Assembly: GCA_003194525.1 (NCBI GenBank)
Contig: NBIV01000179.1
Coordinates: forward strand, 1-64,000
DNA length: 64,000 nt
Reading direction: 5' to 3'
Source of the DNA: Gracilariopsis chorda
Taxonomy: Eukaryota > Rhodophyta > Florideophyceae > Gracilariales > Gracilariaceae
Positions 1-31,422 of the stretch are shown here, piece after piece. The position numbers and the translations under genes are program-made. Under the pieces are notes generated by a model, which was not told the origin of the DNA, did no database searches, and saw only the letters and a program-made list of their open reading frames with translations. Numbering within the stretch: position 1 is the stretch's first letter; every line of letters begins with the position of its first letter.

Positions 1-149
1 TTAAACTCCCGTTCTTCAGGCATGCAACGGCCTACGTAGCAATCAAATACATTTCCAAGGTACGTAGTCATTTCATCCAAAAACACCTCGTACTGGACAC
101 ACAGAACCACCATTTGTTTCGACGGCATCCAACAGGCAACGGTCCCCTC

Positions 150-2030
150 ACGTTCCTCATTCTCCTACTTCAGTCGGATCTTCAGCTTTCACACCATAGT
201 TCACAAGCTCCTTCCCGTACTTCCCTTCGATCTTCCTTCTCGCAGTCAGTAGGATATCCTCCACAGCAAGCGCGGGAGATACTTTGCATACAATTTTGAA
301 AACAGCATTTGCCGCTTCCCTCTCTCCCCACATCTTCTTTCAATGCCTCTACCACAGAAGCAATCCACGCATCCAATCGCTCCAAATGCATCACACTTCC
401 ATCTACATAGCTCGTCTCCGTTCCCTGCACGGTCGCTCCTTGTGTACCCCATAAATTCCCTCAACACCTCACAACTCAATCGGTTCTTGAAGTACAAGTC
501 ATCTGGTTCTTCTCCATACTTTTTCGAAGTCTCGTCATAACCAGAGAAACATATTCTGTCTAAACCAGACAACCTCCACGCACATAAGATCGGATCTCCC
601 CTCTCATCTTTCGGCAACAATTTCTCTTCCGCCTCCTTCATCTGCTCTTCATACGCCACAGCCACCTCTTCATCATCCTCCTTCCGCGGTTTCCTAGCAA
701 GTAAGTGTACCCCAGACCAAAGAATAACCTATCCCTCGCATTCCTTTTCCGCACCCCGACATATCACTAAGAGCCTGTTTCATGCGCCTCCTCAAACACA
801 GATTCCTCTCAACTCTTCTTCGCAGTCAACTTTAATCCCCATGGCTTCCAACCTCCTCCAAATTGGTTTCTCCAGCTCCATCCGCACCACATCAGATACA
901 ACATCTCATCGCTTCCTCCTTGAAAAGACTGAGTGTAGGCCTTTGGCCCCCATGACTTTCTTCCTAGCGCCAGCTCTATAGGTTATCCAAAGGCACCATC
1001 TCCTTCTCGTCGTATAATCAGAACACTGTGCTTCCTCCCCGGTCCCACCTCTTCAGCCCTGTTCGACCAGTTTCGCTCCGAAACTCTCCTTCCGAGGCAC
1101 AACTCACTGGTCTCCTGCTTCGCATATACCAATATCTTCTCATAAACTCTCGAGGCTACTCCAAATGAAACGTATATCAACTTCGATTTCGTACCGTTTC
1201 CGACCACTCTTGATGTCTTCGCCACTCAGTTTTCCTGTTCGACCAGGAATACTCTCTCGTAATGACGTCAGCAGCATCTCTTTCTTCGTAAGTTCATCTT
1301 CTAGCCTCTTCATCTCCCTGTTTGCCAGGTTCAAGCTAGTTGGAGGCTAGTGTTTGCATCTCTTGCTCTTCTTAGTTCCCCCTTCAGCTCTCCAAGCTTT
1401 GTCAACAGCTGATTCCGTCCCATAAACTTTGCCTCTCATGCTCCGTTCTCTTATGTCCGACTTCCTTCAACGGCTCAATTCCATCTTCATCCTCCTCCTC
1501 CTCATACCTTTCCTTCTCCCAGATCCGATCTCCCTTCCCACCACCACCTACCCCTCGTGCACTGTATCGACTCCCTTCGTATAGCTTCGTCAGTGTATCC
1601 ATATTCGACACTCTTCATCGCATTATCCCGATTGAGCCGGGAAGAGGACCCTTGGCTTGTTCTGCGTGCCGGGACTCTGCGAGTTCGGCCTCCATTTCCA
1701 CAAACAACGGCTGATTGCTTCGTATTCTCCTTCCCTCCACGTCCCTCCCCGCTCCCACGTCGTACTGCAGCTTGAAAACGAACAGGACTCTTCTTGCGTT
1801 CCCCAATTCCCCCCGTACCTTGGTGTACTTCGTCTTACGGTGTGTCACTCAACGTGTTCCTTTGAGGCAAGAGTGCTGCCCTGCTCCTCATTCCTCTCTA
1901 AACACTGTTTGGATGCCTTCCATTTACGTCTCTCCTCGACAACACCGCCGTAACTGCAACTAGACCTTCGCCTCTTCGGTTTTCTTTCGGTTTCTCCTTC
2001 TTCCTCTTCCTCACTTTTTACCAAAAACAC
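150..2030 (-). pseudogene. Decayed protein-coding gene of unknown function
   Basis: The plus strand is pyrimidine-rich and the minus strand carries a chain of overlapping short open stretches (150-430, 246-665, 983-1225, 1140-1334, 1402-1611, 1615-1848, 1845-2030) that switch frame but keep one coding-like composition, rich in Glu, Lys and Arg. The last part (about 150-660) reads most like protein, with segments such as YGKELVNYGV and EALKEDVG before a stop near 152. The part around 1140-1334 is coiled-coil-like, and 1402-1611 has an acidic run. I recognise no domain. The most likely reading is one or two minus-strand genes broken by many small shifts, more than five in all. A multi-exon gene is a weaker alternative, because the frames change over very short distances. 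The stretch 2031-2880 has only weak minus-strand open frames (2047-2277, 2231-2665) that I cannot support as genes. Confidence 0.4.
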
Positions 2031-2881
2031 CCTGTGAACGGCACTATTACGAGTAACTGGACCTCTCGGCGGTCTTTTCCTTCTTCCTCCTTACGACTTC
2101 ACTCACCGTACGGTCCGTCATAGTTGAGGTAGCTCCTTCCTGCTTTTTCATCTTCCTTCCCCGTTTGTACGATGGTACTTTCACGTTCGTCTCTCCGTCG
2201 TTTGCAACCCAGAACGCGGCGGACCTCTCTTCACATATACACCCCGGTTCTTGCTTTTTCCGCGCATCTGCTAGCACTTAAACTTCCCGCAATGGTCTTT
2301 CCGAGTCCACACTTGGCCTCCCACCATTTCCTTTGCGAGACTTCGACGTACCGCCTCCTTACTGTACCGTACGCGCTGCTGCTGTTTTCCCATCCGTAAA
2401 TAGGCGGTATTGAACCAAACCGCGGTATCGGGATGCGGAAAGTAGAAGTTAGACCAGGTTGGAGACAAAGGAAAGGATTTGAATTCGAAAGTGACTTCGC
2501 GGGATGAGGCGAAGAGCCAGAAGATGTATAAACTGTGTCATTCCGAAGCCCGAGAAAAATGGATTTTTGAATATCCTGCCATGAACGACGAGCTACCCAA
2601 AAACCTATGCCAAAATGGAGTATTTGGAAACCCTCATCCATATCTTTCACGATTCGTTTCCACACACTCCCTCAAATCCTTAAGGACATGTATAACATAT
2701 GTTTATCCTGTTCCTCTTTCTTTCTATTAATTCATTTGAAGTAAATGCCATTTAGCACCTCTATCCAATTTCACAATTGAAAGCTTTAACAACGAATAAG
2801 ACAGGAACTATAATGTGGAGAATAACAAAATAGAAGTCTACTCAAAATAGTGCTTCACAAAGTAACACAGGTAAGAAGACT

Positions 2882-3421
2882 TCAAGCCGTGCTTCTAAAA
2901 CCGTAATCATTCCCGTAACGAAGAAACAACTCTTCTCCTTCCTTTATATCGTGTATTGCTCTCGCAGATAGCAGAGTGTATTCCATAATCCTTTGCTGCG
3001 ATAAAGTAGAGCTCACCGGACGTATCTGAACATTCGCCTTTCTTCGTATGTTGGGTTCATCTTCTGCTAAGTTTTTCTCCTCGTTTCCGCCCAGGTAGTG
3101 GGGATCATTAATATAGCCTGCCATGCAAAAAGGTGCAGGAACAATCCATATCCTCGCTGTCTTCGTTCCTCCATTATAGGTAGGCAGAGTTTCAAAACCA
3201 ATGCCGCTACCTACCACTTCCATGGAGAACTTGTTGAAAAGCGAAACAGTAGCTCCCATGAGCCCCTCCCCATACGTAACATGTTGTTGGGGACGTTTAC
3301 TAATGTCATGATACACAATAGTCCCATAGAAGTGACAAACAGCCTCTCCTTCTGCGAAATTCCGTGCACTAAAGACTCCGAGCCCGCTAGATGGGTGCTT
3401 CACTGAAGACTTCGCCACCAC
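2882..3421 (-). CDS. SET-domain protein (candidate lysine methyltransferase)
   Basis: SET proteins transfer a methyl group from S-adenosylmethionine to lysine, usually on histones. About 179 residues are open. The SET hallmarks appear in order: a GLGVFSARNFAEGE start near residues 13-26, followed by CHFYGTIVY; an AGYINDPH segment followed by an EPN core near residues 101-124 (family form: NHSC...PN); and a closing AIHDIKEGEELFLRYGNDY near residues 155-173. The usual RFxNHSC core is altered (YINDPH), so activity is uncertain. No pre-SET or post-SET cysteine cluster is visible. The open stretch does not begin with ATG, and a short open stretch lies just upstream in the same direction (to about 3574), so the N-terminus is unresolved and the frame may be broken once. 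It lies 175 bases downstream of the methylase-like gene and points the same way. Confidence 0.75.
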   Translation of the reverse strand: MVAKSSVKHPSSGLGVFSARNFAEGEAVCHFYGTIVYHDISKRPQQHVTYGEGLMGATVSLFNKFSMEVVGSGIGFETLPTYNGGTKTARIWIVPAPFCMAGYINDPHYLGGNEEKNLAEDEPNIRRKANVQIRPVSSTLSQQRIMEYTLLSARAIHDIKEGEELFLRYGNDYGFRSTA

Positions 3422-3595
3422 GCACCATTAACTTGATGCATCTACACCACGCAACAACTCTGGCTCTAACTCGTTCAGCTTTGCCTGAGTGCTTTGCGGC
3501 CACAGATGTAAAGCCTTAGTACGATACTTGCCGATAAGATCCATATCACCCCATAAAGTCGATAGAAAATCCATTATATGGAAAGGAAACCTTTG

Positions 3596-5680
3596 TTACT
3601 GCGGGAAATCCTTCGGTGCTGTCCATTGCATTCCTCTGGATCTCTTCCTGAACACCGTGTCCACATGAAGTGCCGCCTGTACAACAGCATTCGTACCGAT
3701 GCGTTCATCACATTCCAAGTCACCGACTTTGAGGGAATTGTCGGCAATTAACTTTCCCATATGCACTATACCGTTATGCTTCGCGTGTATGAAACAATTA
3801 CGATACTTCTCACCGCCGATGAACTTTCTGGGCGGAACAAGTTCCATGCACACGAGTGCTGTGGTAAACATTTCTGAGAAGAAATCCATCACAAGGTCTC
3901 CAGGTTGAGAAAAACGTGCTATGAGCTCTTTCATCAACTGTCTCGACTTCTGCTCCGGGCGAATCTGACGATTTACAAATCTTTGCCCATCCCGCACCTT
4001 CCAGTAAAGTCTCTCTCCTGGGGCATGATGGGGAACCTGATCGATTACTCCGACATGTCCAGGGTATCGGCTGGCAACATGGTTGAACTTACGGTAGTTC
4101 ACCATTGTCTTCTGCTCCGCACAGGGAATGCCATTCCGAACCGCATGCACTACCTGCTCCCCTGCGGGGAACAAGCTAATTTTGTTGCGACTAGGGAACG
4201 CCATTGGGTTTGAGCGATGGCGCAAACACAACAGGGACGTCTTATCCACGGTGAAAGACTTCTTCATCCTCCCGTCTGCATCAACGTATTGGCAGTCGGT
4301 CAAAATCTTGTACCATATCTGGAACTGAAAACCTGAACAGAAGACGAACAAGTGTCCGCCAGGACGCAGGCAATCCGAGTTGTGATCTGCAAACGAAACC
4401 ATCTTCCGGTGACTGATGCGATCGTATTCGGTATCCCGAATTTGATAAGGCGCGTCTGATATAGAGAGTTGAACTCTCCCCCTCGGAGATATGGTGCCTC
4501 CCGGAACATTTTCATGAACGTCCACCAGCTCTTCGGAGTCCACGCAGTAGAACGCAAAGTTCTTGTCCATCACGGACTCCAGAATCTTCATATCCTTCGC
4601 AGTCACAGGCCCCAGCGTCCCATGAGGAGGGAGGATGTTCACCGAAACGTCCACCGTTGCCTGTATCTCCGCAGCAGCGGGAGCACTAGGCGTGGCAATT
4701 GCGTCATCACTGCTACTACCGCTCCCATCCGTTAGTCCGGAGCCATTGGAGCTCTCACGGAGCTGCTTTCCAACGGTCTGCACGCTCTTCGTGTGGCTCT
4801 TGGTTCCAGGAGTGGCGGATGGTTTGGAATGTACATCCGTAGGGCGCGACCAAGCTTTGCTGGGTTGAACTTTATGCTCTGCACAAGCTTCCTTCACTGA
4901 TTTGACAATATCTTCGGACAAGGAGTCAAATCGAACCGGTAGGTTCGTGCCGCTTCGCGTAAACGTAGATAGCACTGGCCATTGGTCGGTTTCACTCAGC
5001 TCATACATCTTCTTGTCCAGTACAATACGCCGAAGATCCGAGACGAATTCTCTGGCCAGAATACGAATATTGCGGTCTACGTTATCCGAAAAAGCAATAG
5101 CCCAGGGAACAACATTGTCCTCGGATACCGTCGGCTTCATTTCTTGTCCCAGCTTATACGCGGCGGTTTTGGGGCTGTAACCAATCGTTCTGGAGTGAAT
5201 ATGAGAGAGCTTAAAAGTATCTCTGTTGATAAGGAGATAAGGAAGCATCATCTGCTCGCAGTCTCTGAAACCCAGAACGACAGCGAACGCCTCCCTAGCC
5301 CTGCATACGTGCTGTACGCCGTACGCCATACGCTGACCGTGCATGCGATTAGACATGGTGAAACTTTCCACGTACTTCACTGCCTTCACCTTCTTTCCGT
5401 GTCCGAGGCGTCGCTTCCGTTCCCGACCCGTGCTTTCAATCTCGATGTGCTTTACCACCGACAGGTACAGCAGCTGTTGGAATCGAGTAGCAGGAACGGT
5501 CCTAAACCTTCCCCTTCCCTTCCCCGTAGCGGCTCCGCGAAAGTACCTCTTGAAGATGTCATTGTTGGACACCCTTTTTACCATCCCTGTTCCACCTCCG
5601 CGCCTCCCGTCAATGGTCCACTCGTAAAAGTCCCGTATACGCCTGTCTTTCGACCCGTCTTGTTTATCGAACAATGCCAC
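3596..5680 (-). CDS. DNA N6/N4-methyltransferase-like protein
   Basis: A 694-residue open stretch. Residues 1-265 are a basic region of unknown fold, about 265-345 is a Ser/Thr/Ala-rich linker, and 350-670 resembles the beta-class N6/N4 DNA methylases (Pfam N6_N4_Mtase type), which methylate adenine or cytosine amino groups. Motif IV is SDAPYQI at 408-414 (family form DPPY), followed by a LRPGGHLFVFCSG strand at 438-450. The SAM-binding motif I comes later, at 594-608, as GDLVMDFFSEMFTTA, in the order expected for the beta class. Motif I departs from the usual DPFxGSGTT form by losing the glycines, so it may be inactive or bind differently. It has no ATG at the start of the open stretch; the first in-frame ATG is residue 33. 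A small frame (5696-6046) sits directly upstream. It diverges from the ParB-like/oxygenase gene, which suggests shared control. The bacterial-type methylase fold in a eukaryotic setting suggests transfer. Confidence 0.65.
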   Translation of the reverse strand: MALFDKQDGSKDRRIRDFYEWTIDGRRGGGTGMVKRVSNNDIFKRYFRGAATGKGRGRFRTVPATRFQQLLYLSVVKHIEIESTGRERKRRLGHGKKVKAVKYVESFTMSNRMHGQRMAYGVQHVCRAREAFAVVLGFRDCEQMMLPYLLINRDTFKLSHIHSRTIGYSPKTAAYKLGQEMKPTVSEDNVVPWAIAFSDNVDRNIRILAREFVSDLRRIVLDKKMYELSETDQWPVLSTFTRSGTNLPVRFDSLSEDIVKSVKEACAEHKVQPSKAWSRPTDVHSKPSATPGTKSHTKSVQTVGKQLRESSNGSGLTDGSGSSSDDAIATPSAPAAAEIQATVDVSVNILPPHGTLGPVTAKDMKILESVMDKNFAFYCVDSEELVDVHENVPGGTISPRGRVQLSISDAPYQIRDTEYDRISHRKMVSFADHNSDCLRPGGHLFVFCSGFQFQIWYKILTDCQYVDADGRMKKSFTVDKTSLLCLRHRSNPMAFPSRNKISLFPAGEQVVHAVRNGIPCAEQKTMVNYRKFNHVASRYPGHVGVIDQVPHHAPGERLYWKVRDGQRFVNRQIRPEQKSRQLMKELIARFSQPGDLVMDFFSEMFTTALVCMELVPPRKFIGGEKYRNCFIHAKHNGIVHMGKLIADNSLKVGDLECDERIGTNAVVQAALHVDTVFRKRSRGMQWTAPKDFPQ

Positions 5681-5695
5681 ATATCGATAAACCTG

Positions 5696-6046
5696 TCAGA
5701 AGTACTGCGTCGGACCCTGTACAGAGGTGCAAAGATAAGCAGTGACCTCTTCGTCGCTGTAGGAGGTGTGGGAGGAACCAAGGAATCTTTCCAACAATCC
5801 GACCACTTCTGAATTCGCTCGACGATTCTGTAGCATAAACTTTACAATCTTCTCAAATGTGACATCGCGTTTAGGGACCCCGGAGCCTCTCGATTCCGCG
5901 TACGCATCACGGACGGACATAAACACATTCCAGATGGTTTTGAAGCTTTCCGAAATGCTCATGTCTGAGGGCGGGTGCGCAGGAGCCCTATGCCCTATCA
6001 CGGGTGCACCTGAGGTACTCCCCTGTTTAGTGGAGGGGAACGACAT
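5696..6046 (-). CDS. Small open frame upstream of the methylase-like gene
   Basis: From the ATG at 6046 the frame encodes 116 residues, with a Ser/Pro-rich start, a DVTFEKIVKFMLQNRRANSE helix and the helical stretch EVVGLLERFLGSS near the end. No known family is recognised. The frame lies only about 15 bases upstream of the methylase-like open stretch and runs in the same direction. It may be a separate small protein, the displaced N-terminus of the methylase gene (which would make that gene broken about once), or an upstream exon. The open stretch continues upstream of the ATG to about 6181 without another start. It is the first minus-strand frame to the left of the palindrome cluster at 6333-6488, so its promoter probably lies in that interval. 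Confidence 0.45.
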   Translation of the reverse strand: MSFPSTKQGSTSGAPVIGHRAPAHPPSDMSISESFKTIWNVFMSVRDAYAESRGSGVPKRDVTFEKIVKFMLQNRRANSEVVGLLERFLGSSHTSYSDEEVTAYLCTSVQGPTQYF

Positions 6047-6332
6047 GGGTGGAATTTCGGCGGGAGATGCACAGATGCACGAAAGATTGCGTTCGAGTTT
6101 GAATGGTTGCGAAGGAGATGCTTCGTGGCAACCGAGGAACGAAGATGCCGGTTCTGATGATTCACGTCCCTCGAACTTCAAATAGATTTGATTTCGAAGT
6201 GTGTAATGGAGCAGGGAGGGAAACTTCGGAGGGTTTTGTTTGGAATGAGGGAGTTGGGCACTGCAGAACAGACGGAGAAGGTGAAACTTCGAGAATTCGT
6301 CGCAGTTCTCACAGTTCAGGTTGTCGGTCTAA

Positions 6333-6488
6333 CGGCGCAGCTGCGCCGGGTGGATGCTCTTGACATTGTCGGTCGACAATGTCCAGCACGGACACCAGAA
6401 TGTTGATTTTTGATTAAATAAGGGGGGGTCGTTCTTGACACTGTCGACCGACAATGTCAAGACCGACCACCCGGCGCAGCTGCGCCGG
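6333..6488. repeat. Symmetric nest of four palindromes between divergent genes
   Basis: Four palindromes are visible: 6333-6348 (16 bases, perfect, core ggcgcagctgcgcc), 6362-6383 (22 bases, half-site gacattgtcg), 6437-6458 (22 bases, same half-site with one mismatch) and 6471-6488 (18 bases, perfect, same GC core). The left pair and the right pair are also inverted copies of each other, so the whole is an inverted repeat of about 55-base arms around an AT-richer 53-base centre. It sits near the middle of the spacer between the two divergent transcription units. It could be a protein-binding operator or centromere-like site for the ParB-like protein encoded beside it, a foldback or MITE insertion, or a bidirectional regulatory hairpin. 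Confidence 0.85.
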
Positions 6489-6745
6489 CCTGGGGATCGG
6501 TGCCAGCAATGAATCGTTGACGCGTGGCAGGAGGGGGGTTAGAGAAGAGGTGGAAAGGGCGATCGGAATGCTTCCTCCGCAAAGATCTGTGAGCGAACTC
6601 ACCGAATCCACTTCTTCGTGCCACCTTAGCACCTGGTCCGACTGAAAGGACGCAAAGAGAACCTCTGCCTTCCCGCAGGGTTGAATTCAGCTGTCAGCAC
6701 GCGCTGATTTTCGCGGCCGTCTGCACCAGATTACGCGATTCCGTG

Positions 6746-6775
6746 TCGCTTATCGAAAGGTCGCTTATCGAAAGG
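6746..6775. repeat. Perfect 15-base tandem duplication before a start codon
   Basis: The 15-base unit tcgcttatcgaaagg occurs twice in a row, ending about 10 bases before the ATG at 6785. It lies in the presumed 5' untranslated region of the basic protein gene. It may be a regulatory duplication or chance slippage. Confidence 0.7.
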
Positions 6776-6784
6776 TTTCCCATC

Positions 6785-7630
6785 ATGGTGCGCAAGACTG
6801 CAAAGGCGGACAACAGGCGGCACACTAGGAGGTCTACCAGACCCAGTGCCTCTGTGAGGAAAGCGAGGGCAACACCGTCCAATAGCGCAATGCCAACAAC
6901 GCGCAGCGGCATAAAGCAGCCCAGTGACCCATCCTGGGGGCCGAACCCAAGCGAGAAGGTGACCCTGGTCGTCCGTCTACCGAATGGGGAGAAGAAGAGC
7001 GTGGGGACTGTCTTTGTCAGAGGTGATTCCGGTGCTGGTGGGCACTTGGTGAGGACGTTGCATGGGCACGAACTGAAGGGGAAGCCGACAGAGGACCTTG
7101 TCGTCATATGGAAGGTGCTCATTGAGGATGGCAAAGATATGCAGTACCCGTATCAGTTCAAGACGAGTGACAGCGTGCCGAACACTCTGGGAGATATAGA
7201 GAGCAACGCTTTCTACTGCTGGGACGTGAACATGATGCAACCTTCTGGTGGCGGAGCCTCCACTCCCTCCACTCCCGCTGCGAAACCGTCTTCCGCCCAG
7301 ACTCCTGCTGCGACGAAGAATCCGTCCACCAAGAAGGTGAAGCAGAACACCGCAACAAAGGCGAAGGCGAAGAAATTGACGCAATTGGTGAGCTTGAATG
7401 ACGACGACGGTGATGAAATACACAAGGGTGCGTTGCACTCCAATGTGAAGACGACCACCTCCACCGGAAAGGCGAAGGTGGTCAGACTGAGCGATCTAAA
7501 GAAAGGAAACAGCGCGAATCCCACTGTCACTCCGGCGAAGCCTCCACTAAACCCTGGAGCCAGCAGTGGGGGATGTGCGTCGCAGTTACAGACACCGGAG
7601 ACTGCCGTTTCTGCCCCCCCAAAGCGTTAA
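6785..7630 (+). CDS. Basic, largely disordered protein with one compact central domain
   Basis: The frame encodes 281 residues from the ATG at 6785; the open stretch extends a few codons upstream without another ATG. The N-terminus (first 45 residues) is Lys/Arg/Ser/Thr-rich. A compact region follows (about residues 50-130) with alternating strands and a YPYQFKTSDS loop, ending in FYCWDV. The rest is a Pro/Ala/Thr/Lys-rich tail with KKVKQNTATKAKAKK-type clusters that would suit nuclear import and nucleic-acid binding. I recognise no family. It is the first plus-strand gene to the right of the palindrome nest and lies just upstream of the ParB-like/oxygenase gene, so the two probably share a promoter region or function. 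A DNA-binding accessory role is inference from charge and context only. Confidence 0.6.
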   Translation: MVRKTAKADNRRHTRRSTRPSASVRKARATPSNSAMPTTRSGIKQPSDPSWGPNPSEKVTLVVRLPNGEKKSVGTVFVRGDSGAGGHLVRTLHGHELKGKPTEDLVVIWKVLIEDGKDMQYPYQFKTSDSVPNTLGDIESNAFYCWDVNMMQPSGGGASTPSTPAAKPSSAQTPAATKNPSTKKVKQNTATKAKAKKLTQLVSLNDDDGDEIHKGALHSNVKTTTSTGKAKVVRLSDLKKGNSANPTVTPAKPPLNPGASSGGCASQLQTPETAVSAPPKR

Positions 7631-7815
7631 CAATGGCTGAGGGAACTGCTGGCAACGCAATTGATGCAGGCAGTGGTGCTCAGAGTCAATTGGCGTATCA
7701 GACCCAAGTTGCAGAAGCAATTATGGAGGCAGGAAGCAGCGCACCGATGGAGGTTGTATTCCCAGAGCAAGGTGGTGGGGAATAAGAAGGAAGTGATGAT
7801 GATGAGGTTCAGTTC

Positions 7816-10800
7816 GTGGGTTCGAAAGCATTGGCTTCAGACGCCGAAGTTGACTTGTTCGATAAGGGAGATGACCTACCTCCTGATGATGTCGACGACA
7901 GTATGCTGAATTCTTCGTTTGATATGAACGACTACACATACGATACGTATGTTGTCGACATTGACCTCATTAAGCCTCCGGATGACGGTGTGCGAGAACT
8001 GGACCTCACCCACAAGAAAGAAGTAGAGCAGCAAATAGAGCTCTACGGAATCTTGGGGTCCGTTGGGAATCCGAGTGTCACTATTATCGGTACGAAGAAG
8101 CCGGGTGATGACTGGTTTGAAAGGAACCGAATTGTGGTGGAATTTACTTTGGTTGACGGGTTACACCGCTTGAATGTTTATCTCGACCAGAGGAAAACGA
8201 ATGAAAAACTTCAGGATGTCTGCCACCGGCTCAGTGTATCGTTTTGGAGAAGACATGATGGGCTGCCAATGACCATGTCTCAAGTGATTTCGATTGGAAA
8301 CGCGCTGAATGATACGGTTGCTGCGGCTAAAGTGATGTCATTTCGAGACAAGCTCTACTCCATTCATTCGTTTATGAAAACGATTGAGAAGGAGACGAAG
8401 GTGGACTTCAAGAAAGTCACGCGCACAATGCTACGTGGTGCACTGTTGAAGCGCAAGGTGATAGGGACTTCAAACCCCAAAAACATGTTGCAGTTTGCGG
8501 ACATGGGTTTGAGAATGTTCACCGACGAAGACTTCATATCGAGAATGAAGGAAATGTGCTTCAAGTACCCGGAGCTGAGGATTACGCACTTTTCCAGTGA
8601 CAGGTTCTTCAATCTGAAGGGGGACAGGATGAACTTTGCGTTGGAAGCCTTACAGGAACACTATGACGTGCGAAGAGCATCAACAGGGACTGCTATGGGC
8701 AGGTTTCAAAACATGAGGTTGCATTTCTTCAGATGTTGTGAGCAAGCTTACAACCTATTTGGAGAAGTGGCGAAGACGAAGAACATAGGGCTTCACACCG
8801 TGTTCAAAACTGAGGTTGTGATAGGATCCCTGGTTGTTCCTGTTCGAGATTATGTTGCCAGAAACACCGCACGCCTGGAGAGGGCGGCCACTCCTGCCAT
8901 GCGGGAAGGAAACATATCGAAGAGGCTGACGAATCTGAAGAAGAGACTGGGAACGACGTTCCGTATGGACTTTCAAAAGCCAAATCCAAGTCCTGTCCCT
9001 CCCGCACCTGTACCTGTTCCGATGACACAGGGGCAAAGCGCAGTTCAGGGTAGTAATTCGAGCTTGCTCGCGAGGGCGAGTAAGAAGAAGGCTCTGGGCC
9101 ACTTGAAAGACGGAGGTGCAACGGGGATGGTGTCTGCGGGATCTACGCTGGAGAAGAGGAAGAGAAAGGTCCGGAAAACAAAGAAACCGGCAGATGAAGA
9201 CTCGGAAGACGAAGAGGACGCTGAGGAGCTGTTGTTTGAATCGGTGAACGCCGATGCGAAAAGGCAGAGAACCGATGATGTTCCTTACTTTTTCATCAAC
9301 ATTCTGAAGCAGAAGCGAGGACGTGAACTACGCCACTTCTTAAGAAAGAATAAGCTACTGCTTTTCAGTGACGACGAGGGGGGAGAAGACGAAGACAGGA
9401 ACGATCCAAACAAGAAGACGTTTGATGATGAAGTGCCTCAGATTCTTCCAGAAGGATTGGTCAAGGCCGAGGAGGATACCAATGTAGGGGACTTGAGCTG
9501 GCTCAAGTATGTGAGCATGTTGCCCAGCAGGTGGCCCACCGCAACTGCAGATGGTGTTAAGGGCATGTACGCGTGGATGGACAGGATACATCATCCCAAG
9601 AAGCACCGTTGCCATTTGCTTGGGCCGAACGACATGAGGGGTGTTCATCACGCAGTTTTCTGGCATGGTGCGTTCCAGGAGCTTTTGAGCGAATGGAATA
9701 GGGAAAGGAAAGCGTCTGAAGAAGCAGCGCCGATTCTCAGCGATTCGGAAGCGAAGAGTCTCTGGGAGCGGGCGGTGGAGGAGGACTACTACGCCATGGT
9801 GTACTTTGCGAAGAAGACAAGCGAGTTGAAAGAGCGAGTGTTTTGTGTGCTGGAAGGTTTCGGAACGGATGAAGGAATGAGGAGCAGGCTCCATGCCATG
9901 AGTGACTTGATGGATGGTGATGTGAGTGAGAAGCTGCTTGGATTCTTCGAGGAGTATTTCAATCGCCAACAAGATCTTCGAGAAGCAGAGAATCAAGAGT
10001 TCTGGAACCCCATTTCCAATGCTGGGGAGGCAGCTGATGAAGCAGACAGACTGTCTGGGTCTACGAGGTATATGACTACACGGAGAGGAATCGTGGATGA
10101 AATGGAAAGAATGACGGAGAATCACTGGGTGGTGAAGAGGCGGGCGTTGTTGGATGCACGTATGGGTCAGATCTGTGTATGCCTAGGATTGGAAGATAAC
10201 CGAGTGGCGGTGCATAAGATGTTTGTGCCAAAGACTGGGGGTAGAGTGTTGTGTACTGGACGCGGCTGTCTTAGACAGAAGCTACATACGGACTTTCAGA
10301 CACTGACGATCCCGGAGAAACTGAACGAAAAGAATCCGGGGTATTTTATGATAGCCTCTGGCAAGTATTCGTTTCCATTGTGGGTGTGCGAGAGGTCTCA
10401 CAAGCATTTTGCGACAACAAATGTGGAGTTGGAAGCGGTTTCTGGAGGATACGCGACCAGGAAGTTCTTAATTCCACCGTTATCTATATTCATTGGAAGA
10501 GGAGATGTGTCCCATGCGGGGGCAGGGAGTAGAGATGCGATCATGGCACAGAATTTTCTGTTCCGTTACCATATATACATGGTACCAGAGTACTACAAGC
10601 TACCGGATGCGGTTCAACTTCAATCGAGTTTTAGACCCAGGTTTTTGGAGGAAGAGGGCTTAATACGGAAGGACAAAAGCGGAACGAAAGGAACCCTTCT
10701 GTTGCCAGGAGTTGGGGATAACAAAGAGGGCTCCGCTGATGACAGACTGTCACAAGAACCTCTAGAAGACGACGAGGACCCCCAAAATGAAAGTGATGGC

Positions 10801-10902
10801 GAATATGACCCTAATGAAGATGGAAATGATAATGCGGACGACGCCATTTATACTCAAGAGGAGGGTGAGAAGGGAAATGAGGATATGGAAGAAGATAATT
10901 AG
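7816..10902 (+). CDS. ParB-like domain fused to a 2-oxoglutarate/Fe(II) oxygenase-like domain
   Basis: A 1028-residue open stretch. Residues 46-125 resemble the ParB/Srx N-terminal fold: a VVDIDLIKPP strand, a helix with EQQIELYGIL, and the box VEFTLVDGLHRLNVY, whose DGLHR at 114-118 matches the ParB GxxR-type phosphate-binding box. Residues about 420-475 hold a KRKRKVRKTKK nuclear-type cluster and an acidic run. The C-terminal part (about 790-945) shows H824-x-D826, H900 (in GDVSHAGAG) and R917 (FRYHIYMVP), spaced as in double-stranded beta-helix 2-oxoglutarate dioxygenases, which hydroxylate or demethylate bases, proteins or small molecules. The tail is strongly acidic. The open stretch has no ATG before residue 30 (7903), and a short open stretch with a well-placed ATG at 7633 precedes it, so the N-terminus is uncertain and the gene may be broken about once. 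It diverges from a DNA methylase-like gene, which fits a modify/oxidise pairing, but that role is inferred. Confidence 0.65.
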   Translation: MGSKALASDAEVDLFDKGDDLPPDDVDDSMLNSSFDMNDYTYDTYVVDIDLIKPPDDGVRELDLTHKKEVEQQIELYGILGSVGNPSVTIIGTKKPGDDWFERNRIVVEFTLVDGLHRLNVYLDQRKTNEKLQDVCHRLSVSFWRRHDGLPMTMSQVISIGNALNDTVAAAKVMSFRDKLYSIHSFMKTIEKETKVDFKKVTRTMLRGALLKRKVIGTSNPKNMLQFADMGLRMFTDEDFISRMKEMCFKYPELRITHFSSDRFFNLKGDRMNFALEALQEHYDVRRASTGTAMGRFQNMRLHFFRCCEQAYNLFGEVAKTKNIGLHTVFKTEVVIGSLVVPVRDYVARNTARLERAATPAMREGNISKRLTNLKKRLGTTFRMDFQKPNPSPVPPAPVPVPMTQGQSAVQGSNSSLLARASKKKALGHLKDGGATGMVSAGSTLEKRKRKVRKTKKPADEDSEDEEDAEELLFESVNADAKRQRTDDVPYFFINILKQKRGRELRHFLRKNKLLLFSDDEGGEDEDRNDPNKKTFDDEVPQILPEGLVKAEEDTNVGDLSWLKYVSMLPSRWPTATADGVKGMYAWMDRIHHPKKHRCHLLGPNDMRGVHHAVFWHGAFQELLSEWNRERKASEEAAPILSDSEAKSLWERAVEEDYYAMVYFAKKTSELKERVFCVLEGFGTDEGMRSRLHAMSDLMDGDVSEKLLGFFEEYFNRQQDLREAENQEFWNPISNAGEAADEADRLSGSTRYMTTRRGIVDEMERMTENHWVVKRRALLDARMGQICVCLGLEDNRVAVHKMFVPKTGGRVLCTGRGCLRQKLHTDFQTLTIPEKLNEKNPGYFMIASGKYSFPLWVCERSHKHFATTNVELEAVSGGYATRKFLIPPLSIFIGRGDVSHAGAGSRDAIMAQNFLFRYHIYMVPEYYKLPDAVQLQSSFRPRFLEEEGLIRKDKSGTKGTLLLPGVGDNKEGSADDRLSQEPLEDDEDPQNESDGEYDPNEDGNDNADDAIYTQEEGEKGNEDMEEDN

Positions 10903-11022
10903 CGATGAGAGATACATTCTAGTACCGCCGTAAATAAAGCATTGTCTCATATATATCATGATGCACATAAGAGCTAGGAGTCGTCCTTTTCTTTCCTCAT
11001 CAGAAACATATGTATTAACCTG

Positions 11023-11685
11023 TCAACGTTTCTTCTTCAAGAGACTTCCTCGCTCCACATCTTCACTTTTGTCTTCCATTCTTTTCCTCGTCCCTAGGCA
11101 GCTTCTATGAGCACCGCATGCTCCACCGGCCCCGTGTTGTGCTCCGTTCACTCTGTTTTTCAAGTGCACCTGAATATCAACGGCCTCTGTAAGCTGCATT
11201 TCAAGCACAGTCACTCTGTCTTCTAGAGCATTGTTCTTTCGATAAACTGCTCCTATTTCCCTCACCAAGCACTCCACGATCCCTTCCACATGATCCACCA
11301 TCAAGACCCCTGCCATTTTCATCCGATTTCGCACAATAGTAACCACGTCCAGTGGAATCCCACCATCAGAAAGGCTCCAAGACAGGCCACCATACTCAAA
11401 CACTACATCTGTCATACAAGTATACAAACTCTCCTTCAACGAGGCACTTAAAGCCTTAACCCGGGCCTTCATATCCTTTCTGAATCTGTGCTCCGGTCCA
11501 CCACCTGCATCTCCTCCTCTATTCGCAGCCAGTACTCCAACTCCCAGCTCTCCTAGCCCAACAGTCTTCTTTTTCTCTTCTGTTCCCTCATAACCATCTG
11601 CTTCATCTCTGGGCGGCATTTCGGGGACTTCCGTGTGATTCAAAAGAGTGAGCAGTTCTTCATCTCTAATGTACCCACTCGACAT
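11023..11685 (-). CDS. Coiled-coil protein with basic C-terminus, unknown function
   Basis: The frame encodes 220 residues from a clear ATG at 11685 to a stop at 11023. The N-terminal third is polar and Gly/Glu-rich. The middle has predicted helices (RKDMKARVKALSASLKESLY; VVTIVRNRMKMAGVLMVDHV). Residues about 150-185 form heptad-like coiled coil (NNALEDRVTVLEMQLTEAV), and the end is basic (LLKKKR), which would suit nuclear localisation and oligomerisation. It runs convergently with the ParB-like/oxygenase gene; the stops are about 120 bases apart. No family is recognised. The spacer 11686-12192 is AT-richer and holds nothing I can support beyond short open stretches. Confidence 0.55.
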   Translation of the reverse strand: MSSGYIRDEELLTLLNHTEVPEMPPRDEADGYEGTEEKKKTVGLGELGVGVLAANRGGDAGGGPEHRFRKDMKARVKALSASLKESLYTCMTDVVFEYGGLSWSLSDGGIPLDVVTIVRNRMKMAGVLMVDHVEGIVECLVREIGAVYRKNNALEDRVTVLEMQLTEAVDIQVHLKNRVNGAQHGAGGACGAHRSCLGTRKRMEDKSEDVERGSLLKKKR

Positions 11686-12192
11686 CGGGAAAATAGCTTA
11701 CGCTCTGAACAAAGCCGCGATATAGTACGCGAGATATTTAGTATCGACGCTAACCCGTCCTCAAATATTTCGGTCTCCAATTTTCTACTAAAACCGTACT
11801 TCTGCGACATCTAAACAGCTTTCCACGTACGCAGCTTGATATGTTAATACTACAATATGCGCCTAACTGTGTTTCTGAATCAGAATGAACCAAATATATT
11901 TCTTACCGTGTATGGAGTCGTCTACAAGGAGAACCTTGGCATTAGATATCTTACTTCAAGCTCATTCGCTTTTAAAACGTACAATGAACTCACTCGCGTA
12001 CATTAAAAAGTGGTATAGGTATAAGAAAAACCTTTACAATGGGGTATAGAAGAGAAGCGTAGCATGTAGCTCACATATCCTAAATCCTGACAGCTGTGCA
12101 AAGACGTCGACTGGAAGGGAATGCGGAAGATAGAAGATGAAGAGGCTACGACAACGAAGGTATTCTGTATTGTTGGTCTGTTGTTCTAGAAG

Positions 12193-12465
12193 TTATTCGT
12201 ACGGAAGGACCCGAGAGGTTGGGGCTCTGGGGTTTGTTCCGATAGCTGCAATATATCGCTTGAATCTATATTTGATTTCGTAGTATATAGCGCTGGAGCA
12301 GACGAGGAGAAGAATGAATAAAGTGTTAGTCACTAGTGGAGGGAAACCTCTGTGGGTTGAAAAGGCAGAAGGTTGGATGGACTCCGAAGTGAAGTGCGCG
12401 AAGAAGACGGGCACAACTCGACGAAGAAAGTTGCGAATGGAGATTACGATGTCGTCCAGGAACAA
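12193..12465 (-). CDS. Short membrane-segment frame downstream of the multi-pass protein
   Basis: An open stretch of about 90 codons, with no ATG at its start, contains a basic amphipathic part (IRNFLRRVVPVFF) and one strong hydrophobic segment (TLFILLLVCSSAIYY) followed by a positively charged run (KYRFKRY). It lies immediately downstream of the multi-pass membrane protein frame, on the same strand and in the same reading frame. The likely reading is that both belong to one gene interrupted once by a stop, which would add a fifth membrane helix. A separate small gene or last exon is possible. Confidence 0.4.
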   Translation of the reverse strand: MFLDDIVISIRNFLRRVVPVFFAHFTSESIQPSAFSTHRGFPPLVTNTLFILLLVCSSAIYYEIKYRFKRYIAAIGTNPRAPTSRVLPYE

Positions 12466-12483
12466 TGCTCTTCGGAGAGACTT

Positions 12484-13392
12484 TCAGGCCGTTGACGTAA
12501 AAATTTGTATGATGTTGGAGAGATAGTGTGGCGAATATGGGAGAAGGACTATGTTGTTGAACGGGTGGCCTGTGAGGGCGTACACGGCCAATCTTTCGAC
12601 AAAGTAGACTGTTAGGGCGAAGAAGAATCCACCGGGAAAGAACGCGATGGAGGCGTTCCGTATAGAACGGCTTACGGAAGCTGGCGTTGGTAGCAGTTCG
12701 TAGGCGGCGAATATGTTCGCGTTCAGGGCGAGGAGTCCAGCTATGGCAAATCCTGCGAGTCTTGCGCTGATGGTGCTCAGTCTGCCATAATGTTGAGGGG
12801 GGTTCATTGGGCACAAAGAGAGGGAGCCGAACAACTCCTTGTAAAGGGAGAATGCAAAGTCGAACAACAAGATATGGAGTACTGTCGCGATGATACTGTA
12901 CAGTATGGTATATCCAGTCTCCGCTTCACAGGAGGAATGGCCGGATAGAAGGAATTTGGTGACCACTGGTTTCAAAACACCGTAGAGAGTTCCGATGGCG
13001 AAGGAGAGGAGGGAGGTGAAAATTAGTAGAGAAAGAAGACTTGCCATATGGAATGGATTGTTCGAAAGGGATTGAGAGGAACGAATGTAGTTGGATATGT
13101 GTCGAAGGTACGGGAGGTCTTGTCGTAGAAGGTGATTTTGCAAGAACCGGGGGTCAGAGGGGTTGTCGCGCAGGAGTTGGTCAATGTTGGTCATTTCGGC
13201 TTTCACTTCATCACTTAGAATGGATGCTGCGCCTGAAAGATATGACTTGTTTGTGTCCCTGCAGTACTCTAGCTTCAAGCAATTGTTGAAACGAAGGTAG
13301 GTTTTGTTGGGGAGAATGTCGAACGTGAGAGTTGCTCGAACGTCATTGTGGAGGAAGACGTATTGTTGGGAGCGAAAGTTCTCGAACAACAT
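12484..13392 (-). CDS. Multi-pass membrane protein of unknown function
   Basis: From the ATG at 13392 the frame encodes 302 residues. The open stretch extends upstream to about 13490 and there contains a hydrophobic segment (SLSLLFFINSSA) that could be a signal anchor, but without an ATG. After a soluble N-terminal part of about 110 residues come four hydrophobic helices: SLLSLLIFTSLLSFAIG, TILYSIIATVLHILLFDFAF, ARLAGFAIAGLLALNANIFA and FFPGGFFFALTVYFV. I recognise no transporter or receptor family. The next frame on this strand (12193-12465) continues the same reading frame, so the full protein may be about 95 residues longer. The spacer 13480-14030 to its right is between divergent genes and shows no feature I can name. 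Confidence 0.5.
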   Translation of the reverse strand: MLFENFRSQQYVFLHNDVRATLTFDILPNKTYLRFNNCLKLEYCRDTNKSYLSGAASILSDEVKAEMTNIDQLLRDNPSDPRFLQNHLLRQDLPYLRHISNYIRSSQSLSNNPFHMASLLSLLIFTSLLSFAIGTLYGVLKPVVTKFLLSGHSSCEAETGYTILYSIIATVLHILLFDFAFSLYKELFGSLSLCPMNPPQHYGRLSTISARLAGFAIAGLLALNANIFAAYELLPTPASVSRSIRNASIAFFPGGFFFALTVYFVERLAVYALTGHPFNNIVLLPYSPHYLSNIIQIFTSTA

Positions 13393-14030
13393 GTTTAGAG
13401 GTGCTAGGTCAAGGGCGGAACTGTTGATGAAGAACAGGAGAGAGAGAGAACGGGCAGGTGTGTCTGATTTTATATGCAACAGAATAGCTTTATTGAACTA
13501 GATGATGGCGACTAGATGAAGGAAGATTAAAGGCAGGACCAAACGGTTGTTCTATGCGTTTTGAACGCGTTTCTGTTCATATTCAATGCACGATATTGAG
13601 AAGTGAGGAAGAAGGAGATGAGAAACACTTTCTGGTAGAAGTGGTATAAGAGGTCCAGAATGTGCGCGGAAAAGGGGGAAAGGGTTATGAAGAAGAAATA
13701 ATGAGGTTTATGTAAATGGAGGCTGTGGGATGGCGGTAGAGGTAAAGAATATGAGTTTATTGGGCATTGAAGGGGTACATCTGGGGTGTAGAGAGGGGGT
13801 GACGATATGAGAGAGGTTATTGGGTGGGGTAGAAATGAAAGTAAAAGCGAAAAGTGCTAGATATTTTGAAATACAGTGTATGGGGTTTTTGGAAGGGGGT
13901 AAAATGGCGGGGAAGTGAATGCGCGGGAGCGGCTGGCGCGTGAGGTTCACACCGGGGGCTTTCCACTTATTTCGATCTCTACCGATTCTTTTGATCCTTG
14001 CCGCTTTCTTTGAGCTGTGTTGTGTTTGAG

Positions 14031-14873
14031 ATGACGAGTGGCCGCCGATCGCGCAGCTGGGGACAGTTCCTTGCGGAGATTGAGGAAGCCGTGGCTGTGG
14101 GGATGCGGAAGAAGCGGGAACAGGAGGAAGCGGAGGAGGATGGGTTGGAGGGAGTGCTTGCGTTGTGTTCTAGGGCGATGGTGAGGGAGGTGGGGAAGGA
14201 GGTGGAGAGGGGTGTGCGTGGGATGGGGAAGAAGATTGCAGCGTTTGTAGTTCGAGAGTTGGGAGGGTTGAGGGAGGAGCAGGAAAGGTTTCAGGCACGG
14301 CTACGGGAGGTGGAGAAATTGGTGAAGGAGGGAGGTGGAGTTGGGGAGAGTCGTGGTGGACGGCGGGGCTCACCCGTGACTGTGACGCCGAATGGTAAGA
14401 TGACGGGTGGTTTTAGGTATATGAGTGGCGATGGGATAAGCTTTGGACCTGGAGACGGGGGCTTTGATGGGGAAGTCGAGAAGGAGGGGGTACGATTTGT
14501 GGCCGAGACTGCGGAGAGCGAGGGGGAGGTGTGCAAGGGGAGGGTTGGGGAGAAGAGGCCCATAGTGAGAGAGAACTTGAAGGGATGCAGTAAGCGTGGA
14601 GTGGGTGGAGGGAAGGAGGCGAAGAAGGGCGCTAGGAAGGGGACTCGTGGGCTTAGGAGTGTAGGAGAGGCGGCGAGGTGGGCAGAGAGAATCTTGGGTG
14701 ATCAGCGCAAGAGGAGGTGGGAGGTGGATGGTGAGGTTGATGAGGAGAGGCGTTGTGGACGTTTGGGGAAGAGAGTGAAGAAGGAGAAGGAGGAGAGCGT
14801 ACCGGACGACTTCTTCAAACTGACGTTCCCGGAGACGGAGACGCAGCCGCCTCTCGGTGGAGAGTGGTTTTGA
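14031..14873 (+). CDS. Gly/Glu/Arg-rich coiled-coil protein, unknown function
   Basis: The frame encodes 280 residues from the ATG at 14031 (TSGRRSRSWGQFLAEIEEA start); the open stretch extends 11 codons upstream without an ATG. The N-terminal 100 residues are strongly helical and charged (MRKKREQEEAEEDGLEG; LREEQERFQARLREVEKLVK), typical of coiled coil. The middle is Gly-rich, and the rest is basic with clusters such as GKEAKKGARKGTRG and GKRVKKEKEE that would suit nuclear import. No family is recognised. Its charge pattern resembles the 220-residue frame at 11023-11685, so the two may be functional cousins. The interval 14874-15330 holds nothing I can support. Confidence 0.5.
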   Translation: MTSGRRSRSWGQFLAEIEEAVAVGMRKKREQEEAEEDGLEGVLALCSRAMVREVGKEVERGVRGMGKKIAAFVVRELGGLREEQERFQARLREVEKLVKEGGGVGESRGGRRGSPVTVTPNGKMTGGFRYMSGDGISFGPGDGGFDGEVEKEGVRFVAETAESEGEVCKGRVGEKRPIVRENLKGCSKRGVGGGKEAKKGARKGTRGLRSVGEAARWAERILGDQRKRRWEVDGEVDEERRCGRLGKRVKKEKEESVPDDFFKLTFPETETQPPLGGEWF

Positions 14874-15334
14874 TGGGTGTCGTCGTGATATGGGTTGGTA
14901 AGAGCGGTTCTTAACCTCCAGACCCGTTATTCACATCTAGCGAATGACATACAAAACTCCACGGTAAACTAGCGACGTCTTTTGCGTTCGTTTTGCATTC
15001 ATAATATGGAAGACTTTGTGCTAGAATCGGATGCAAAAACTAGCTGGCACTCTAAAAAATTTACGAAAATTACCTCTGCATTCGCGATCCGTCATTTTCT
15101 GCAGAAGTGTTGGACGACATATTTCAATCAGACCAAACTAGCCCCAAATACTAGCGTTCCGAGAACACAGACGCAAGGGTCATTCTCCTACAGACCTCCC
15201 TCCTTAAGACTTGACGTCCCGTCGGATTCCTTTCCGATTGAGCGTTTGCTTTCTATTTGCATTCCCACTGATTGCCTCAGCAAATGAGGAGTTTTCTCCG
15301 AAATGCACCATTGTGGCATGTCCTTCAAACCCAA

Positions 15335-18567: not shown

Positions 18568-21314
18568 CAGGGATCAGTAAAATATCTCCCCAGGGTCTGA
18601 TACATCTTAGTTCCTCCAGGATGGCCAGCCAACCTCGGATAGTGCGCGAGGTAAAGAACGCGTGCCCGTAAGGCCTTAGGCACTACCCGCTGTATCGCCC
18701 CGTCCAATGGTGACCTGCGACATAATATGCCTCGGCGGTCATAATCAAATAGCGACCCAGGGGTCCCTACTTTCTCTCCTATCTGGGCGCAGTATTCGTC
18801 CGTTTTCTGGGCCTGAAGGAATTCCTCGAGGGGTATTGGTGTAAGATCCGCGCTTTCCAAATGGGCCATATGGATATCCAACGTTGGATATTCCCAGTCC
18901 ACGGCGCATAAGATCGCTGCGCCGTGTCAGTCCGTCCATCCGGCCATTCTCAACTCAGCCACCAGTGGTTCCTCTCCCTCGTCATCAGTGTACTGTGGTC
19001 CGTCCCAAATGGTGCGAATCTTATCGTCCAGGGTAGTTTGGTCCGTACCATCGGTCATGATGCGTGACAGTGCATCTGTGGCCTGATGTTTCAGCCCTAG
19101 CCTATAGGTCACTTCGTAACCGAATTCGGCCAGGTGCAATCTCCATCGGGCCAGACGGGAGGATGCATCCGTCATGTTCAGTAGCCAGCGGAGGGAGTGG
19201 TGATCTGTTCTAATGGTAAAGCGAGTTCCTTCCAAATAAGGCCGAAGATGGAGCACTGACCACACGATGGCCAAACATTCTTTTTCCGTGGTGCTATAGT
19301 TCCTTTCGGCCTTGGTCAGGGACCTACTACGGTAGCCAATTGGGTGATATTCCTAAGGGGACTCCTGCTCTTGTAGAAGGAGATAGGCACAGCCCATTTG
19401 AGTCGCAGATGCGTCCGTATCTATGATGTACGGTTTATTGCCCTTGGGTAGCGCCAAGACCGACGGATTAACCAAATGGTCCTTGAGGTTTTGGTAGGCT
19501 TCATACTGCTCGTCCGTGAGGTCGTCTAATTCCAAAGGGGTCCCTTTCTTCAGCATCTCATTGAGAGGTGCTGCAATTTTCGCGAACCCTGAGAAAAACC
19601 TACGGTAAACATTACAAAGGCCAAGGAATGAGAGCAATTCCGTATGGGTCCTAGGGGTTCGTGCTTCTCGTATGGCCTTTCTTGTACCTTGGGCCACTTG
19701 GAGTTTACCCAGCCGGACCACATGGCCAAGGTAGTCCACGGAGGGCTGGAAGAAGAAACACTTCTTAAATTTCAGTGTGACGCCAGCCTGCTGGAGTAAC
19801 CTAAGGACTGCCCTCACATGTGCGAAGTGTTCCCTAATGGGCCTGGAAAAGATGATCACATCATCTAGGTAGACAAAGGCGAATTTCCATTTGACCCTGG
19901 ACAAAATGATGTCCATGGCGCACTGGAAAGTAGCTGGCGCATTCATAAGACCAAAGGGCATCCGTGTAAATCGAAATAATCCTTCGTGAGTCGTGAAGGT
20001 AGTCAGCGATTTCACCTTGTCGTCCATGGGAACCTGCCAGTACCCACAATTGGCATCCAACATGGTGAGAATTTGCGCTTCCCCAAGGGAATCTAGGCAG
20101 TCGTCCATACGGGGGATAGGATAAGTATCCCTCTTGGTCACCGCATTTAGTTTGCGGTAATCAATACAAAACCTTACGGTCCCGTCCATCTTGGCCACTA
20201 GGACAAAAGTGCTAGCCCATTCGGCCTCAGTGGATGGTGCACGCTCAATGACCCCAGCGGACTTCATTTTCTCCACCTCCTGGGCTTCCACCTCTCGTAC
20301 TTTTAGGCCAGTCCCATATGGATGCTCATATTGGGGCGTGGCCCCGTCCTTAAGGTCAATTCGATGCCTTGTGGCATCGATCTCGCCCAGCGTTCCACTC
20401 CAAATGCTAGCAAAGTCCTTGAGGAGATCAATGACTTGTTTCTTATATGGTTCAAAGTCATCGCCAAGGTTGACGTCGTTTTCCCAATTGGCCGGTGGTT
20501 CACCCCCAAGAAGCAACTTCTCCGGATCAATCTCCATGATTGCCACTGGAGCAGGCATAGATACCCCCACCACTGCACCCTTGGGTAGCCTTGTAGGCTT
20601 CTCACGGAAGTTGGTCATGGTGACCGCAAAGGGCCGGTTGGGTACCACATTCATTACTCCATTCACCATGAGGGAAAGGTGTTTCGTTACCAACTTAGGA
20701 TGGTTTTGCAACAAAACCAGACCTGAGGACTCGCATACCGCTGCAGCGGCTACCTGGGTCATAGGCGGTATGACTATCGCTTTTGCCATTCTGACCTTGT
20801 TGGACACGGTCCTCGTGGGAAATTTGACCTTAGCTGGGGCATCCTCGGGTCCAGGGCGCGAACGAACAATCGCCAATGGTGGTCCTCGATGGAAAGTGAC
20901 CCTCTTTTGGCCATGATAGATTGCCTTTACATATCTATCAATAAAGCTCGTCCCTAGGATCCCTTCTGCCGGCAGGTTCGGACATACGAGAAACCAAGTC
21001 TTAACATTTAGGTGACCCAATTGGACGTAAAGCGGAAGTATTCCGCGAATTTTCATCATCCTACGTGATGCGTCGGTTACCTTCGGTGACTTTTTTTCCT
21101 GTATCATCCTTTCCCAGCCCAATGGTAAGACCTTCGAATGTACCAGACTGGGGCCTGCTCCAGTATCCAGTACGGCCGTAAACGTCCTTGTGGTATTGGC
21201 CTGTAGTCCCAAGGTTCCCTGTACCTTGTAGTTATCCTTGCTCAGGTCACAAACAGCGTCCTCCAGGTCTTTGCATTGGTCCACAGCATACACCCGACTC
21301 GAGACCCCTGTCAT
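18567..21314 (-). pseudogene. Protease, reverse transcriptase and RNase H of the minus-strand Ty3/gypsy element
   Basis: Part of the broken Ty3/gypsy element. The stretch reads, from high to low coordinate, an aspartic protease (AVLDTGAGPSLVHS), reverse transcriptase with the FVYLDDVIIFS catalytic box and the RFCIDYRKLNAVT segment, RNase H (IDTDASATQMG; TDHHSLRWLL), and the start of the integrase zinc-binding region. Confidence 0.85.
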
Positions 21315-21675
21315 TTCGTCCTCTGGTTTCTTTCTCTTCTCAGCTCCTGTGGTCGACGAGTCCGATGGTTTGAGGTGGCAGTTATAAGAGGGACGATACG
21401 CCTCTATGCGTCCTTCTGGTCGTTATCCTGCGGCGTGGGCACCGCAAGATCGCCTTTTCCGTCCAGGTGTTCGACGCTATACCTTGGGCCTTCAACCATG
21501 TTGACCTCAGGTTGCCTCAAAGGTGTGGTCAGGGGAGTCATATACTTTGAGCTCCCTGGCGTTCCAGTGATTCTCGGAGGGAAGGTCTTACGGAAGTAAC
21601 CCTCGGATCAGCGCACCTGATAGTTCTCCTCCTTTCGCGCCATAATTCCCTTGCGGGTGTCCTCAGGCATATAAT

Positions 21676-31341: not shown

Positions 31342-31422
31342 CTATTCCCGCCATACGTTCATTGTGACTGTGACAAAAAGCGTCAGGGAGCCCAGTCGAG
31401 CTCCCATTGCTTGCACATCCAG

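Follow-up and report, generated by a model that had tools for sequence, protein, structure and literature searches.

Fungal Plavaka transposons carry TET/JBP genes (Kojima 2025, PMC12730594), and in the same paper, which we cite from excerpts like the other literature below, TET/JBP and SET genes on transposons are interpreted as a means of countering silencing. The fungal elements have termini of two kinds, TGT..ACA in PlavakaA and CATCA..TGATG in PlavakaB (PMC12730594). In bdelloid rotifers, the amino-methylase N4CMT is coupled to histone methylation in a loop that connects N4-methylcytosine (4mC) and histone H3 lysine 9 (H3K9) through SETDB1 variants as the proposed partner (PMC8885841). 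The VANC proteins of Arabidopsis VANDAL elements are anti-silencing proteins with targets that vary between related elements (PMC5735166). Here, we describe an 8-kb locus of the red alga Gracilariopsis chorda, situated within positions 1 to 64,000 of contig C179 (NBIV01000179.1; hereafter the window) of a 91.3-Mb assembly. The locus lies in the interior of a large DNA transposon of Plavaka type (CMCT) and makes up its cargo half. It holds two divergent genes, termed A (methylase-SET fusion) and B (predicted dioxygenase), with a nest of palindromes between them.

The right end of the element is marked by a terminal inverted repeat (TIR) at 15152-15173 on the plus strand, which ends in ...GAACACAGACG. 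This repeat of about 22 bp has 212 matches in the genome with at most 2 mismatches, compared with 0 for a reversed control. Alignments of the window with the copies C12, C435, C228 and C330 (95.8-97.0% identity) end jointly at window positions 15173-15177, and the alignment with C105 (84.6% identity) ends there as well; the comparison with C1065 reaches only to position 14258 and that with C249 only to 7496. In the near copies, the outward-facing repeat ...TTCCGARAACACAGACG is identical at both element ends. The termini read CGTCTGTG/CGTCGGTG, i.e. CGTC(T/G)GTG...CAC(A/C)GACG. Identical 2-bp flanks, taken as target-site duplications, accompany 19 of the 20 TIR pairs tested, C3 being the only pair that lacks them, versus 35 of 380 mispaired ends of different elements. 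Inspection by eye finds the duplication in C228 and C330 and not in C12. The right-end flanks of C3 and C228 look alike, which hints at a duplicated segment or at insertion into the same repeat.

In the near copies, the left end is reached about 5.6 kb to the left of the window start, measured over C1065 and C12, and the full element is about 21 kb long. This length is the sum of distances in these two copies, hence pieced together, and it fits a TIR-bounded element of 20,544 bases in C98. The portion within the window covers 1-15173 (no strand assigned), with the left end and the transposase beyond the contig start; since the contig start cuts the element, the window copy is incomplete. In the missing left part, two near copies display the Plavaka transposase domain PF18759 at 52.7 and 72.1 bits (cut-off 26.3), and the transposase open reading frames (ORFs) of distant copies, 1138 and 1160 aa long, score 76.8 and 76.6 bits. 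Genome-wide, the Plavaka listing comprises 114 rows. KDZ (PF18758) has no match in the genome; the controls likewise gave none, so this result carries no weight. Near the left element end, locus L029 (240-1230) contains tandemly repeated, degenerate units of about 345 bp.

Copies of a more distant family (C53, C332, C550 and C745) are 99.66-99.79% identical to one another over the compared stretches, indicating that this C53/C550 family moved recently. Copies of the window family are about 96% identical, and the window copy itself is decayed, as judged from its sequence. An initial annotation, made from the letters of the window, had supposed a eukaryotic and mobile system, and this is borne out by the Plavaka transposase, the TIRs, the 2-bp target duplications and the near-identical relatives.

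Gene A runs on the minus strand. Its N-terminal part (5696-6328) is split off in the window by an in-frame stop, and the sister copies have longer open frames there. The methylase region at 3596-5695 matches a beta-class N6/N4 amino-methyltransferase (PF01555, 43.4 bits, cut-off 26.7), and the C-terminal part at 2882-3427 is a SET domain (PF00856, 29.3 bits, E 1.2e-6, cut-off 22.4), so that both enzyme assignments of the initial annotation stand. Motif IV precedes motif I, which is the beta order. The window methylase also matches the DNA methyltransferase family phrog_67 (E 2.1e-11), and the nearest solved structures include the adenine methylases DpnA and CcrM and other methyltransferases. 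In the copy C53, methylase and SET share a single ORF of 1065 aa, with 66.8 and 23.3 bits, both above the cut-offs. Such 1065-aa frames are free of stops in C53, C332, C745 and C241, and SET is fused behind the methylase in C53 as well as in C550. The window gene is broken, with a stop at 5696-5698 and further stops between methylase and SET; this break and that of gene B were read from the DNA and might be spliced out.

Motif IV of gene A had been given as DPPY, which holds for C53, C332, C745 and C550; DAPY stands at this place in the window and in all seven related copies whose motif was read. At motif I, the window copy has FSEMF and C105 has FSETI, and six near copies share FSGTF. The canonical SET motif is NHSC.PN. 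The SET domain of gene A keeps the general pattern, with YIND(P/S)...AN in place of this motif in the four aligned sequences. Scans that started from short peptide patterns turned up nothing related to A in prokaryote genome contigs and nothing related to either gene, A or B, in viral contigs.

Gene B runs on the plus strand, and a change of frame, located between 7630 and 7786, splits its window copy. The basic N-terminal part (6593-7630) thereby lies in a frame different from the main part (7786-10902), which is composed of an N-terminal region with a VDG.HR box, a low-complexity middle and a C-terminal 2-oxoglutarate (2OG)-Fe(II) dioxygenase domain at 9829-10644 (HTDF ... GDVSHAGAG ... RYH). 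In C550, a single ORF of 1417 aa joins the basic and the large protein. Together with the 1065-aa ORF that joins methylase and SET, this reduces the four separate proteins of the initial annotation to two genes. The oxygenase core of HxD...H...R type noted earlier in 7786-10902 is upheld by the motif and by a confident AlphaFold model, in which the double-stranded beta-helix fold is predicted. The closest solved folds among the matches listed are KanJ, SnoN and AsqJ. On the strength of this model, gene B ends in a 2OG-Fe(II) dioxygenase with a KanJ/SnoN-type fold.

The dioxygenase domain has no match in Pfam. No TET/JBP match in Pfam was found for the window protein (E<=1), the B copies (E<=5) or 12 members of the domain family (E<=10), and the fold lies closest to the KanJ/SnoN type among the matches listed. 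No TET structure appears among the 50 fold matches listed, which carries no weight against a TET-like fold. Profile searches of the PDB with regions of B gave no match, and the window proteins P0002 and P0005 found none among 5.8 billion proteins at E<=1e-3. A 12-row dioxygenase profile recovered 8 relatives (P0010-P0017) in public assemblies, so that the family may reach beyond this genome. The window domain retains HTD, H229 and the R of RYH. Across an alignment of 17 rows, H229 never varies and D155 hardly does, and the arginine is replaced in L012, L080 and L085. The ratio of nonsynonymous to synonymous substitution (dN/dS) between B subfamilies is 0.10-0.14 in five comparisons with dS 1.1-3.3. 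Values of about 0.1 indicate that the subfamilies diverged under purifying selection.

The VDG.HR box of gene B had been proposed as a ParB-like domain. The likeness is one seen by eye only and has no support from sequence profiles. The ParB_N profile gave 0 matches in this genome at E<=10, with controls matching in 11 of 14 genomes, Pfam yielded no ParB match on B, the PDB profile search was empty too, and ParB tblastn in phages and plasmids reached a best E of 1, which is unconvincing. At the level of profiles, the assignment fails.

In the copy C53, A is followed on its own strand by a third gene, C, an ORF of 821 aa that has no Pfam match, and an ORF of the same length is present in C31. 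The window retains decayed pieces of it at 185-1225 on the minus strand, of which 259-503 shares 69.8% DNA identity with L021. The window family, for which the order was pieced together from copies, and the C550/C31 family, with A proteins about 35% identical between the two, share the arrangement TIR, transposase, C, A, palindromes, B. The same gene set and order, which the initial annotation had suggested looking for elsewhere in the genome, is present in the C550/C31 family, and the genes do not turn out to be unrelated ordinary host genes.

In the window, the palindrome nest lies between A and B at 6333-6487 (no strand assigned), with arms of 58 nt that are 90% complementary and inner TTGACATTGTCG/CGACAATGTC units. 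The divergent arrangement around palindromes is therefore as first described. Folded as a single strand, the window palindrome has a z of -8.33. At the same site upstream of A, C550 carries two palindromes with arms of 43 and 47 nt (100 and 94% complementary; fold z -15.6 and -15.2), and C53, which has no B at this place, has palindrome arms of 47 and 26 nt upstream of A. When the C550 stretch was compared with the window by blastn, only pieces of gene B aligned, indicating that the palindromes of the two families are not alike. In C210, the half-sites are 17 bases apart.

The window-type unit has 53 forward and 53 reverse matches in the genome (control 0), and the other half-site has 51 and 54 (control 0). 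We typed 110 palindrome sites, namely 59 of window type (0-1 mismatch; rows with 2 mismatches omitted) and 51 derived from 100 of 105 rows of the other half-site. All but one (109/110) have an element feature no more than 15 kb away, and such zones make up at most 7.1% of the genome. A listed palindrome is held by 26 of 31 TIR-bounded elements. Among these 31, a Plavaka row is present in 26, a methylase row in 6, a SET row in 3 and a B row in 3; in 21, no methylase, SET or B row is found, and 17 of the 21 have a Plavaka row. The palindrome is kept in 18 of these 21 elements, which fall into 11 arm-length classes. The copies C12, C228 and C330 (L013, L017 and L019) share an internal deletion from about 6628 to 10808 of the window, removing nearly all of B. 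These copies kept the palindrome region, and most of their SET region is gone too.

Counted over single rows, a SET row lies within 1.5 kb downstream in 21 of 59 methylase rows. For B, 19 of 35 rows have a divergent A or SET row within 8 kb, and 34 of 59 methylase rows are no more than 20 kb from a Plavaka row. These counts omit 13 of 85 SET rows (those of host type, which score strongest, plus C33/C26), 2 of 114 Plavaka rows, and 24 of 83 methylase rows as well as 24 of 59 for B, which are additional fragments that mostly belong to copies already counted; 153 of 212 TIR rows are included.

We propose, with confidence and doubt in even balance, that element-encoded editing of DNA or chromatin marks helps the transposon to evade or manage silencing. 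The transposase would move the element, and A and B would act on the DNA or chromatin of the element itself, with the palindromes as points of nucleation. Gene A would write a DNA N-methyl and a lysine-methyl state, and B would remove or convert the opposing mark, allowing the element to escape or tune host silencing. The cargo would also serve, in trans, those deletion derivatives that retain the palindrome and the TIRs. The direction of this activity may be either, a protective mark or self-restraint. That the locus both writes and oxidises or erases marks had been suggested before; the enzyme domains, the fold and the HxD...H...R motif fit this suggestion, and the TET/JBP profile does not. 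A bolder form, which we regard as doubtful, would have the palindrome as nucleation site akin to parS or a VANC target, where a putative ParB-like dioxygenase B and the DNA-methyl and lysine-methyl writer A load and spread a private chromatin state over all copies, including the deletion derivatives. VANC itself is not known as an enzyme of the methylase, SET or dioxygenase families.

Several observations weigh against mark editing by the element. Some gene A members may be inactive, because the SET domain lacks NHSC.PN and the window subfamily carries DAPY, and the HxD histidine of the dioxygenase is replaced in L075, L083 and P0010. Young pairs display dN/dS values of 0.51-1.0 for A and 0.40-0.60 for B, largely reflecting decay after insertion. 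Within the distances set, the expected neighbour is found for no more than 19 of 35 rows of B and 21 of 59 of the methylase, many being broken, cut or unscored copies. Finally, the cargo is dispensable in cis, since 17 of 31 TIR-bounded elements have a transposase row without A or B rows. Captured enzymes with small molecules or host proteins as their substrates might hitchhike on the element without any chromatin function, as the many TIR-bounded copies without A and B rows and the kinship of the dioxygenase fold with small-molecule enzymes (KanJ, SnoN, AsqJ) would allow. We consider this quite unlikely: fold neighbours do not reveal the substrate, gene A unites a DNA methylase and SET in one protein, and gene order and purifying selection have been maintained over deep divergence. 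The physical combination of both enzyme types in A would equally suit an element that places repressive DNA and histone marks on itself, as copy-number control or host-friendly silencing, with B as the counter-enzyme, and N4CMT indeed deposits 4mC at transposons with SETDB1 as its proposed partner (PMC8885841). Such self-restraint seems unlikely to us, as a transposon has little to gain from silencing itself and the family carrying A was recently active.

The palindromes allow for a simpler explanation, namely that the nest is a mere bidirectional promoter or terminator hairpin, or a deletion hotspot, and that its retention is uninformative about recognition. Long palindromes provoke deletions. 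With this known proneness and the position of the nest between two divergent genes, we take such a role as a real possibility, although we lean against it. The 21 derivatives were selected for having no A or B rows and may share ancestors, so that their 11 classes do not amount to 11 independent events. Nevertheless, the exact palindrome core persists in derivatives without either gene row, and its position is constant with a sequence that depends on the family. The retention and the family-specific sequence at a constant place favour a cis-acting role, which would lend indirect support to the recognition site postulated by the initial annotation: two diverged families have different sequences in the same place, and deletion derivatives keep them. 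A viral origin, which had been left open, is extremely improbable. Giant viruses contain methylase, SET and 2OG oxygenases, and viral 2OG enzymes occur among the fold neighbours of the dioxygenase. An endogenous virus or virus-derived locus is at odds with TIRs, 2-bp target duplications and a transposase, no capsid or polymerase domain above cut-off is present among the Pfam-scanned element ORFs, and no relatives turned up in the pattern-based scans of viral contigs.

Other features are present within and around the element. Near its right end, an ORF of 292 aa (13995-14873, plus strand) looks coiled-coil-like by eye, and its Pfam matches stay below cut-off, weak and uninformative. Further along the window lie pieces of long terminal repeat (LTR) retrotransposons, with polyprotein fragments at 19353-21422 on the minus strand (RVT_1, RNase H and protease domains) and at 58687-61794 on the plus strand (a weak protease, followed by RVT_1, RNase H and Integrase_H2C2). 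The stretch 30325-37174 on the minus strand combines a Helitron-like N-terminal domain (33.6 bits) with a PIF1 helicase (76 bits) and probably represents Helitron pieces. At L078 (C193:122113-122385), we noted the only phycobilisome-domain match of the assembly, with 28.1 bits, beside an ORF named peptide-deformylase-like by eye, in keeping with a red algal host.

If active, the element would constitute a self-contained device for coupling DNA to histone marks and a natural sequence-targeted writer of the epigenome. It would also serve to test if writing, erasing or privatising marks is a way for transposons to survive. Mark editing by the element predicts 4mC or N6-methyladenine (6mA) on the transposons of this organism. 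In the open-licence literature, we found no description of this enzyme combination on a transposon, and the terms 'phytanoyl-CoA dioxygenase', 'transposase' and 'DNA transposon' were not found together.

The closest counterparts are the fungal Plavaka elements with TET/JBP, which share with the present element the Plavaka transposase, TIRs, 2-bp target duplications and a cargo dioxygenase of the 2OG-Fe(II) kind. The element belongs to neither PlavakaA nor PlavakaB because its termini differ from both, and it departs from the fungal elements, as the excerpts describe them, in lacking a TET/JBP profile match, in its additional methylase-SET fusion, gene C and palindrome nest, and in its algal host. 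Oomycete HarbingerS and MuDR elements are likewise DNA transposons bearing a SET gene, but they belong to other transposase superfamilies, and a fused DNA methylase is unmentioned for them in the excerpts (PMC12730594). Amoebidium giant repeats flanked by Plavaka also comprise large clusters of genes with few introns, among them a Plavaka transposase; many of the cargo genes there are, in contrast, tyrosine recombinases, arranged in tandem clusters (PMC11244446). With N4CMT, gene A has in common a bacterial-type N6_N4 amino-methyltransferase in a eukaryote, on the N4CMT side coupled to histone methylation, whereas N4CMT is encoded by the host and has a chromodomain and SPPY, and the methylase here is fused to SET, carries DPPY or DAPY and resides on a transposon (PMC8885841). 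VANDAL/VANC offers a working analogy, with element-encoded anti-silencing, putative in the present case, and varying, family-specific targets in cis, which are often tandem repeats for VANC and would be a palindrome nest here (PMC5735166). Transposons with epigenetic cargo, in the form of single enzymes, are thus already known, and it is the combination that is unusual: a methylase and SET in one protein, together with a dioxygenase outside the TET/JBP profiles and a palindrome that varies between families.

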